Source: a virus
Reading direction: 5' to 3' (one strand)
DNA length: 23,749 nt
Virus record (IMG/VR): IMGVR_UViG_3300006734_000039
Location: 1 to 23,749 of that record
Shown: in pieces, positions 1 through 23,749 of the stretch
How positions within the stretch are numbered: position 1 is the stretch's first letter
Layout of the letters: every line of letters begins with the position of its first letter
Notes under the pieces: model-generated
Told to the model about the DNA's origin: nothing
What the model saw: only the letters and a program-made list of their open reading frames with translations
The model's database searches: none
Translations under genes and position numbers: made by a program

Positions 1-1
1 A

Positions 2-1717
2 AACATTTTTATCACCGATTGTTCATTCAACGAATTAAATTGTGAATGTTCCGTTCCGATTCAAGATGACGGATTTTCATCGCGCGTTCAAAACAATAAA
101 AACATTCCGGTTTCATTGTTAAACGACAAAACCAAAAACGGTGAACCAATAACACCGGCGGCAAATTATGCGGTGATGTTGTTTGATCCGCGTGACGGAA
201 TCAACTACTTTCCGCGAAAATTGTTTTCAATATTTGAATGTTTCAAATTTATCGTGTCGTATATGACCGATAACACGGTAGAATTTGAAAGCGATTATTT
301 TGAAAACGGCGACGGCCAATTTTCCGCGATTTTATCCGGTTACGATTTACGAAACGGTGATTTGTTCATCAACAACGTCGAACAATATCCGGAAATGACG
401 TTCGAAAATTTATACAATTTCGCGCGGCGAACGCACAACGTCGCGTTGGGTTTCCGGCGTGATGTGAACAATCGTCCGGTGATGATTATTGAACACATTA
501 CATTTTTTCGAACATCGCCGGTTGCGGTTCAATTAAACGACGTTAACGAAACCGAATTGGATTTCGTGCAAGAATTATTGTATTCCAAAATTTCGGTCGG
601 TTCGAACATTATCAATCAATGGCAATGTGACGACGGAAATTCGGAATGTACGGCCGCCAACAATTTGATTTATTTCGGTTTCGAAAACGAAGAATTCGGG
701 TTTACCGGTGAATGTAATAATGACACAAATTTGGATTTGTCTATTCCGTCGTCATTTGTTGTTGATCCGAACACAATCGAAGATGTGTTAATTTACGACA
801 ATCAAAATTTTGACCGTTCAAATTTTGTCATTCGTTGGAAATTTAACCCGTCACCGTTCCGTCACGCCGTTCAAACCGACGTTTTGGGAATTGGGGCATA
901 TTGGTATAACAATTATTATTCAAACAAAAGCGTCATTGAACGGTATTCTGATTATTTATTCGGCGCGTTGGTGTTGTACGGATTGCAGGTCAATGTTCAA
1001 TTGTTTATGGTCGACGGAAACATTTCGTCGGGTTTGTTGTCACCGGATCAATTTCCGATTCAATTTAATTGGCAACCGGATTTCACAAACACGATTTTTG
1101 ATGTCGACGGCGTTTATCAATTGTCACCAACAAACGAATTTCGACCAATCAATGACGGTATTTATAAACTTTTCGCCGGTGTTCAATTATATCGTGATTC
1201 ATCGTCGGATCAAGACAATTCATTGATTGTTTCCGGTTATTTCATTTTGGAACAATTCAATTCATCCGGAACGTTGATTGCGACACACAATTCATTGTTG
1301 CAATTCAATTTTTTAACAACCGGTTCGAATCCGTTTTTCATTGAACGAGAATTTGATTGGATTACAATGACGGCCGGCGATTACCTTGTTTTTTCGGTTG
1401 AATATTGGCAAAACAGAAATCCGGCCGTTTACCAAGCGGTGATTGAATTTTCACGAACTGAAAATCATTATTTGGAATGCCGCGAATCGCGTGTCATTAT
1501 TAAGGACGATATTCCGCAAAACGGCGCGGAACGTCGAATCATTAGAACAACGACAAATGAAATTCCGGTCGAATACGAATCAATAAAACCGTATTTTGAC
1601 GACACGACAAAACGAATTGCGTTGACGAATCAACGAATAAATCGCAAAGGTTGGACGGATCAAATCCGTCATAACTTTGTGACCGGAACAACGGACATTT
1701 CCATTTTAACCGATTGA
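2..1717 (+). CDS. Putative tail/baseplate structural protein, 5' truncated
   Basis: The frame is open from base 2 with no stop, so the gene starts before the window; the first in-window TTG (116) is not a convincing start. About 571 residues are visible. There are no membrane segments; the protein is rich in aromatic residues and Asn, with beta-rich spacing typical of virion proteins. An early block around residues 75-105, where aromatic residues and a K-L-F-S-I-F-E-C-F run precede an acidic S-D-Y-F stretch, resembles tail/baseplate proteins of Bacteroidota siphophages as I know them. It ends one base before the next tail gene, so the two are probably one transcript. Function is inferred from context and general resemblance; a distal-tail or receptor-contacting role is possible but not shown. 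Confidence 0.6.
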   Translation, partial: NIFITDCSFNELNCECSVPIQDDGFSSRVQNNKNIPVSLLNDKTKNGEPITPAANYAVMLFDPRDGINYFPRKLFSIFECFKFIVSYMTDNTVEFESDYFENGDGQFSAILSGYDLRNGDLFINNVEQYPEMTFENLYNFARRTHNVALGFRRDVNNRPVMIIEHITFFRTSPVAVQLNDVNETELDFVQELLYSKISVGSNIINQWQCDDGNSECTAANNLIYFGFENEEFGFTGECNNDTNLDLSIPSSFVVDPNTIEDVLIYDNQNFDRSNFVIRWKFNPSPFRHAVQTDVLGIGAYWYNNYYSNKSVIERYSDYLFGALVLYGLQVNVQLFMVDGNISSGLLSPDQFPIQFNWQPDFTNTIFDVDGVYQLSPTNEFRPINDGIYKLFAGVQLYRDSSSDQDNSLIVSGYFILEQFNSSGTLIATHNSLLQFNFLTTGSNPFFIEREFDWITMTAGDYLVFSVEYWQNRNPAVYQAVIEFSRTENHYLECRESRVIIKDDIPQNGAERRIIRTTTNEIPVEYESIKPYFDDTTKRIALTNQRINRKGWTDQIRHNFVTGTTDISILTD

Positions 1718-1718
1718 T

Positions 1719-22605: not shown

Positions 22606-23304
22606 ATGAACAAACGTTTGAACATTCTTGAATTGTTTGCCGGTTCGCGGTCAATTGGGAAAATTGCGGAACAACGCGGTCACAACGTTTTTTCCGTTGA
22701 CATCAAACCGTTCGACGGAATCAATCACGTTTGCGACATTGAATCGTTATCGGCCGACGACGTTCCATTTATTCCGGATTTGGTTCATTCCGGCACGCCT
22801 TGCACAACGTATTCAATCGCGGCAATATCACATCACCGGCCAACAAACGGAACGATTTCGGATTTCGCGAAAAAATGCGACCGGATGAATGTTCACGTTT
22901 GGTCGTTGATTGACGAATGGTCGTGTTTGTATTACATTGAAAATCCGCGCGGATTGTTGCGGAAAATGCCGTTTATGTCAAACCGCGACCGCGCAACAAT
23001 TTGTTATTGTCAATATGGCGACGACCGAATGAAACCGACCGACATTTGGTCAAACAACATTCGGACATTGTTCAACGATGTTGGTGAATGGATTCCGCGA
23101 CCAATGTGTTACAACGGAAACGAAAAATGTCATCACGAACGCGCGCCGCGTGGATCATCAACCGGAACGCAAGGTCGCGCCAACAATTACGAACGTTCAA
23201 AAATGCCGAAACGTTTGTGTTTGGATTTAATCATTGCCGCCGAAAAACGAATTGCGAACGATTCACGGCCATTTGAAACAAAATCGATTGCGACCTATCT
23301 TTGA
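22606..23304 (+). CDS. Cytosine-C5 DNA methyltransferase-like protein
   Basis: 232 residues, short for the family. Motif I is L-F-A-G-S-R-S-I-G (10-18), an acidic residue D32 follows as in motif II, motif IV is G-T-P-C-T-T-Y-S with the catalytic-type Cys66, and motif VI is E-N-P (112-114) instead of the usual E-N-V. A later Q-Y-G-x4-K-P-T-x-I-W (136-148) resembles motif VIII. A clear target-recognition domain is lacking. Such compact proteins occur in phages and may protect DNA from host restriction or be altered in specificity. The adjacent gene order (methyltransferase, then terminase small subunit) is common in phage early-to-packaging junctions. Confidence 0.7.
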   Translation: MNKRLNILELFAGSRSIGKIAEQRGHNVFSVDIKPFDGINHVCDIESLSADDVPFIPDLVHSGTPCTTYSIAAISHHRPTNGTISDFAKKCDRMNVHVWSLIDEWSCLYYIENPRGLLRKMPFMSNRDRATICYCQYGDDRMKPTDIWSNNIRTLFNDVGEWIPRPMCYNGNEKCHHERAPRGSSTGTQGRANNYERSKMPKRLCLDLIIAAEKRIANDSRPFETKSIATYL

Positions 23305-23322
23305 CAATCAAAACGTTTTGCA

Positions 23323-23749
23323 ATGGCAAAAAAAACAAACGGTGACGGCAAATCCGACACATTAAAAAACACGCGAACCGCGAAACCAAAATTCAAATTG
23401 CCGTACGGCGTTAATGCAAAAACACCGGACGCAATGATTGCGGCGTTGGAACACACACGCGGAATCGTTTCACACGCCGCGCCAATGGCCGGAATAAATC
23501 GCGACACGCATTACGAATGGATGACAACGGTCGACGGTTACGCGGCGCGCGTTCAATCTGTGAAAAACGGCGCAATCGATCACGTTGAATCAAAATTGAA
23601 CGAATTGATTGACGGCGTTTCGGTTGTGACACCGGCCGGTAATTTATACACGACACCGCCGGACAACACGTCAATAATTTTTTACTTGAAAACGCAAGGG
23701 AAAACACGCGGTTGGATTGAAAAACAAGTCATTGAACACACCGGCGTTG
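23323..23749 (+). CDS. Terminase small subunit-like protein, 3' truncated
   Basis: 142 residues are visible from ATG 23323 and the frame is open to the window end. After a lysine-rich start, residues about 35-70 form an HTH-like segment (A-A-L-E-H-T-R-G-I-V-S-H-A-A, then A-G-I-N-R-D-T-H-Y-E-W). A following helix (I-D-H-V-E-S-K-L-N-E-L-I-D-G) leads to N-T-S-I-I-F-Y-L-K-T-Q-G-K and R-G-W, the usual signature of phage terminase small subunits of this type. It recognises phage DNA for packaging; the large subunit should lie just beyond the right edge. Confidence 0.75.
   Translation, partial: MAKKTNGDGKSDTLKNTRTAKPKFKLPYGVNAKTPDAMIAALEHTRGIVSHAAPMAGINRDTHYEWMTTVDGYAARVQSVKNGAIDHVESKLNELIDGVSVVTPAGNLYTTPPDNTSIIFYLKTQGKTRGWIEKQVIEHTGV

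Follow-up and report, generated by a model that had tools for sequence, protein, structure and literature searches.

Near-absence of the dinucleotide AG/CT from the DNA of a probable Bacteroidota phage, possibly the footprint of an escape from nucleases reading short words

The DNA analysed here (the window, that is the whole of a virus record, linear and 23,749 bases long, judged from its genes to be a tailed phage of Bacteroidota) has lost about 91% of its AG/CT steps. It holds 265 of them where shuffled sequences have 2903 on average (sd 44), which corresponds to a strand-symmetric rho(AG/CT) of 0.091 over positions 1..23749, and its longest stretch free of AG/CT reaches 745 bases. We give about even chances to the reading that this near-absence is the footprint of a long-lasting selection on the double-stranded phage DNA, most likely through the escape from host restriction-type nucleases reading short AG/CT words. 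The depletion had been noticed in a sequence-only reading of the window, whose local counts proved exact (6 in 1-600, 6 in 16561-17160, 5 in 18781-19380 and none in 8462-8560) and whose remark that GA/TC is spared holds for the entire window (rho 1.08). A search of the literature for the purge of a whole dinucleotide in phages, with most subscription journals and bioRxiv outside its coverage, found none.

The features of the window are collected in Table 1, and the portal protein served as the query for finding relatives with and without the depletion. The name of the probable major capsid protein, which has no family match, rests on position and size. An open reading frame at 23323-23749 (MAKKTNGDGK...), which runs off the end of the window, was judged by eye to be a putative small terminase subunit. 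The start of several genes is preceded by A-rich leaders such as CCAAAAACAACAAAATG and not by Shine-Dalgarno sequences. Furthermore, a leader of 110 bases is repeated at 8459-8568 and 17238-17347 with 90% identity and carries a GTCGGC-AACGTC-GCCGAC hairpin immediately 5' of a start codon; the core of this repeat has no exact match in the viral contigs.

Table 1. Features of the window and the matches on which their names are based
Feature	Position	Strand	Basis or remark
Portal protein	5716..7503	+	PHROG 7376 portal, E 1.4e-9
Head gene adjoining the portal	7503..8459	+	33% identity to L026-L030, order kept; syntenic with AG-normal relatives
Intergenic leader	8462..8560	+	zero AG/CT
Probable major capsid protein	10629..11786	+	32-33% identity over 381 residues; syntenic with AG-normal relatives
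M15 peptidase (endolysin)	16054..16440	+	Pfam PF08291, 2.1e-14; PHROG 894 endolysin
ERF single-strand annealing protein	18776..19423	+	Pfam PF04404, 2e-12
Mu Gam-like end-protection protein	19446..19955	+	PHROG 253, 7.4e-36
Replication initiator (Lin1244-type)	20387..21130	+	Pfam PF14297, 1.4e-9; PHROG 2562
Cytosine DNA methyltransferase-like protein, PCTTYS motif	22606..23304	+	PHROG 757, 1.9e-24

The depletion acts at the level of the DNA. The observed to expected ratio of AG/CT lies at 0.04-0.18 across the codon phases 1-2, 2-3 and 3-1, and the DNA between the genes holds 18 steps against 223 expected, which bears out the earlier view that the depletion is not only a coding effect; the absence of any AG/CT from the intergenic leader leads to the same conclusion. 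Nearly all the genes lie on the + strand, yet on the sense strand the depletion of CT equals or exceeds that of AG in all phases, and intergenic DNA is equally affected, which places the effect on double-stranded DNA and not on mRNA or codon use. Selection at the mRNA level, whether through codon use or through an RNase, is thereby dismissed. Nearly all AG contexts are low, GAG being the lowest (10 of 551 avoidable steps). The rho of TA is also low (0.35), those of CG (2.24) and AA/TT (1.51) are very high and high, respectively, and GGG/CCC, CATG, CCATC and GGACC are nearly absent.

The proteins being held fixed, the genes could hold a minimum of 100 AG/CT steps and random synonymous codons would give 2337, whereas 247 are observed. 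Every available synonymous escape from AG is used, and the replacement depends on what is synonymous: NAG gives way to NAA, NCT to NCG, NCC or NCA, CTN to TTG, AGR to CGN and AGY to TCN, the last being a two-step replacement that is used nevertheless. The avoidance of AG even overrides the amino-acid constraint, so that the proteins of the window are altered. Lys, Glu or Gln followed by a residue with a GNN codon (Val, Ala, Asp, Glu or Gly) always creates an AG, and such forced pairs number 100 against 336 expected (Glu-Gly, 1 against 23.5), that is a ratio of 0.32 on automatically called reading frames, compared with 0.85-1.10 in AG-normal relatives. Asn and Asp are enriched ahead of the GNN residues, and the enrichment of Lys, Glu and Gln before ANN is no greater than before other residues, which argues against the G-to-A change of a simple C-deamination. 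The dipeptides Gly-Pro and Pro-Gly are missing from the window proteins (0 against 14 expected for each), probably because of the avoidance of GGNCC and of GGG/CCC/AG.

The AG depletion is lineage-specific. The portal relatives in the genome collection all belong to Bacteroidota, and nearly all of the family have a rho(AG) of 0.65-1.06; the syntenic relatives, with about 33% protein identity, stand at 0.91-0.94. One member, L047, is the opposite extreme (AG 1.38, CG 0.26). The exception is a prophage (L066) of the Bacteroidales MAG RUG11067, with a rho of 0.32; we take RUG11067 to be a rumen MAG, hence the name rumen clade used below. The free contig IMGVR 3300021387_000097 matches this prophage over 40 kb at about 96% identity, and further contigs of the clade have a rho(AG) of 0.31 and 0.46-0.51, with neighbours at 0.78 and 0.98. 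Since the signature recurs in a MAG as well as in separate IMG/VR contigs, and since the proteins align normally, a sequencing or assembly artefact is eliminated.

The prophage of about 42 kb occupies approximately 118.2-160.4 kb of contig C1 of RUG11067 with sharp compositional edges, the host DNA away from it has a rho(AG) of 0.86-0.93 (about 0.88), and no other AG-low island was found in the approximately 1.1 Mb of this host examined. The depletion thus belongs to the phage; a host-wide bias is rejected for RUG11067, as is a genome signature common to host and relatives. Computed by phase, in intergenic DNA and in relatives, rho is neither near 1 in the window nor lowered throughout the family, and the sequence-only reading was right to set ordinary bias aside, since rho is near normal in the majority of the relatives and in the only host known for an AG-low relative. 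The portal tree places the window beside rows with a rho of 0.81 and 1.01, and the rumen clade beside rows at 0.98, so that the AG-low state arose at least twice independently; L048, a tree neighbour of the window, sits on a long branch and its exact placement is unsure. Among 393 Bacteroidales genomes the portal was found in RUG11067 only, apart from one weak partial match, the lowest AG among 30 DUF4494 loci across Bacteroidales was 0.61, and searches for relatives through the portal protein alone or through the leader-repeat pattern returned none. Side observations concern the rpoB loci of two gut Bacteroidales MAGs (L067 of G003 and L068 of G002), in which AG is lowish (0.74 and 0.64) and CG is high (1.63 and 1.79), and the AG-low prophage itself, which carries (L072, 17078-18505) a reverse transcriptase near a tail-type protein of 724 residues, possibly as part of a diversity-generating retroelement.

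A depletion that spares the host chromosome, and that marks a few phage lineages and not their sisters, could also be produced by an agent encoded by the phage itself, for example a nuclease that would degrade the host DNA at short AG words and from which the phage would be protected by lacking them. We grant this explanation little probability: no candidate gene was found, outside the structural genes the window has almost no matches with the complete prophage, the methyltransferase is not common to the AG-low phages, and an integrated prophage would have to keep its enzyme silent. No gene common to the AG-low phages and missing in their AG-normal relatives was found, the window being a fragment. 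The methyltransferase-like protein of the window might possibly protect some of the phage's own sites; as a common cause it was rejected, its closest kin (L021-L025) having a rho(AG) of 1.0-1.1 and no match to it being found in the rumen AG-low records searched, fragments among them. In three of these kin (L021-L023) CG is very low (0.21-0.37), the opposite of the window. The PAPS reductase and the genes of the terminase region were likewise rejected as the cause, since they also occur in AG-normal relatives. The relatives of the M15 endolysin elsewhere have a normal rho(AG) (0.78-1.04).

Does the depletion result from selection or from mutation? Two AG-low phages that are 96% identical and differ at 1365 positions were compared, with NCR codons as the control. 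In the Glu and Gln codons of this pair, 9 synonymous A-G exchanges were counted over 829 A-ending and 58 G-ending sites, as against 65 over 651 and 810 sites in the control codons; in AG-normal pairs, whose normalised exchange rates hardly depend on the neighbour, the corresponding counts are 56 over 478 and 234 sites and 81 over 589 and 249 sites. Relative to the AG-normal phages, the gain of AG is thus suppressed about 8-fold and its loss raised about 2.6-fold, on small and unpolarised counts. A scaled selection strength of about 3 would lower the gain roughly 6-fold and raise the loss roughly 3-fold, whereas a pure hypermutation would place the whole effect in the loss and leave the gain unaffected. 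Because the counts are small, the pairs unpolarised and the controls themselves shaped by the preference for CG, the comparison supports, without proving it, a selection against gaining AG rather than a mutational process.

Hypermutation or a damage bias at AG does not agree with this pattern, and the damage or repair process that had been put forward as a cause from the sequence fits poorly with a loss that is modestly raised and a gain that is strongly suppressed. In its wider form, a bias of mutation or repair confined to these phages, under which AG/CT steps would be unstable or rarely formed, would easily account for the graded rho within one clade (0.31, 0.46-0.51, 0.78, 0.98) and for the parallel rise of CG and AA/TT. 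We nevertheless consider it quite unlikely, in view of the per-site gain and loss (with the same reservation on the counts), of replacements that follow what is synonymous, and of the all-or-none words and forced amino-acid changes, which it would not lead one to expect.

The loss of AG in the rumen clade concerns particular words, in an all-or-none manner: MCAG, CGAG, CTAG and AGCT are gone and GAAG is kept. In the prophage, ACAG and CCAG stand at 0.01, CGAG and AGCT at 0.02 and CTAG at 0, whereas GAAG (0.99) and AAAG (0.66) are retained; in L094/97, AGCT and CTAG stand at 0, AAAG at 0.88 and TCAG at 0.68. Of the 60 AG five-mers of the prophage, 16 fall below 0.02, whereas none would do so under a uniform model; in the window, with nearly every AG context low, 19 of 56 do so against 3.9 expected. 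Another relative, L046, has almost lost GAG/CTC (about 37 against 451) and keeps a normal CAG, a trinucleotide purge which is again indicative of asymmetric words that are short and built on AG.

Within the portal family, it is the AG-low phages that have also lost many restriction-like words: 16 such words are eliminated in the prophage, 13 in L094/97 and 5 in the window, against 0-3 in seven relatives submitted to the same test. The prophage has lost GGCC (0/229), ACCGT (0/91), CCCGG (0/60), CCAAG (0/45), GGATG, CCATC, GCATC, GGACC and GTCTC among others, L094/97 have lost GATC (0/271), GGCC, AGCT, CGACG, AATATT, GAATTC and ATCGAT, and the window CATG (4/125), CCATC (0/25), GGACC (0/22), CCGCGG (0/25) and GGAACC. 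The elimination is nearly complete and affects both strands, as in restriction-site avoidance. CCATC, which is recognised by the BccI enzyme of Bacteroides caccae, is missing or almost missing in the window and throughout the rumen clade, and elsewhere clearly reduced in L063 only. The chromosome of the RUG11067 host avoids GGCC (0.16), as its prophage does, and CTAG; the AG words are avoided by the prophage only.

These missing words, and the all-or-none AG words of the rumen clade, could suggest that very many ordinary restriction sites are avoided at once and that AG/CT is low merely as a frequent component of them, without any agent reading AG. We hold this to be unlikely. Among 617 known specificities, the steps most often found inside sites are CG, GC, CC and GA, AG ranking below them, so that these four would fall first, yet CG is raised in the window; AG remains at 0.83-1.06 in phages that lack just as many words; and nearly every AG context is low in the window. 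Since avoidance of the known repertoire would not affect AG in particular, and since phages lacking many words are AG-normal, an additional AG-reading component is needed. The claim, made from the sequence alone, that no restriction effect could do this was therefore too strong, the rumen depletion resolving into all-or-none words; it stands insofar as the known repertoire by itself would not have predicted the loss of AG.

These phages might instead avoid a protospacer-adjacent motif of CRISPR that is built around AG or CT. Such motifs are short, asymmetric and read on both strands, their avoidance would agree with a strength that varies with the 5' base, GAG being the lowest, and the depletion of such a motif in phages has been reported (Kupczok and Bollback 2014, PMC4246573). 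However, a newly gained motif would carry hardly any cost before a spacer against it is acquired, so that the near-complete elimination of AG is not expected, nor are the changes of amino acids and the all-or-none words extending on both sides of AG; we consider this explanation very improbable.

Of the causes suggested earlier, a host defence reading AG fits best, and we infer that the selecting agent is host-encoded and restriction-like. The putative host nucleases would read short AG/CT-containing words in the phage DNA; the phages gaining an AG would be selected against, and the purge of the short AG words would have gone as far as the near-loss of the dinucleotide. Either one enzyme with an AG core of 2-3 bases or several successive enzymes, whose asymmetric sites have AG in common, would be at work. 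This escape from host nucleases is favoured by the depletion of both strands, of all phases and of intergenic DNA, the deficit of forced-AG pairs (100 for 336), the synonymous escapes that differ from codon to codon, the suppressed gain and raised loss of AG, the all-or-none AG words, the many restriction-like words eliminated in the AG-low rumen phages, the loss of CCATC common to the AG-low phages, the normal host chromosome and the GAG/CTC purge of L046. Against it stand the fact that the known sites as a whole would deplete CG, GC, CC and GA before AG, the normal AG (0.83-1.06) of other phages from which many words are missing, the small number of methyltransferase-like genes in the half of the RUG11067 host genome examined, and the temperate nature of the rumen phage, restriction-site avoidance being weaker in temperate phages according to a survey in which it concerned mainly orthodox Type II sites, rarely Type III and not Type I or IIG (PMC6286503). 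More specifically, a single defence, host- or phage-encoded, might act on an AG/CT core of 2-3 bases, from which separate phage lineages would have escaped by deleting the dinucleotide; we regard this as conceivable but doubtful. Such a core is far shorter than the known host restriction specificities.

If the agent is indeed a nuclease, few signals known to be read in phage defence would be as short, and the host would have to shield its AG-rich chromosome by a protection not yet described. The AG-low phages and their AG-normal relatives provide a natural comparison that makes the defence reading testable. The window also illustrates the extent to which a phage can recast its DNA, and even its proteins, in order to evade a defence that would read DNA. 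Furthermore, such genomes distort codon and reading-frame statistics, stop-poor DNA giving rise to many long spurious frames.

Among the known systems, the CpG depletion of vertebrates, a C-to-T mutational process that combines methylation and deamination, offers the likeness of one dinucleotide strongly lost genome-wide; here, in contrast, the replacements follow what is synonymous, in a pattern that agrees with selection. In the chlorella viruses, where protection is by methylation, nicking enzymes that read short sites, such as CviPII with its specificity CCD, indicate that a specificity of 2-3 bases is possible for a virus-encoded nuclease, but no such gene was found in the window, which is a fragment. 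The PAM depletion in phages of CRISPR-bearing hosts (PMC4246573), likewise the work of a host defence, also concerns a short asymmetric motif on both strands; the loss is far stronger here, the longer words are all-or-none and amino acids are changed. Finally, the avoidance of orthodox Type II restriction sites (Rusinov et al. 2018, PMC6286503) resembles our case in that short words are selectively lost on both strands and that the AG-low phages also lack many restriction-like words. It differs in that a dinucleotide, and not a site of 4-6 bases, is nearly gone here, in that asymmetric words dominate the AG part, in that the proteins are altered, and in that the rumen phage is temperate.
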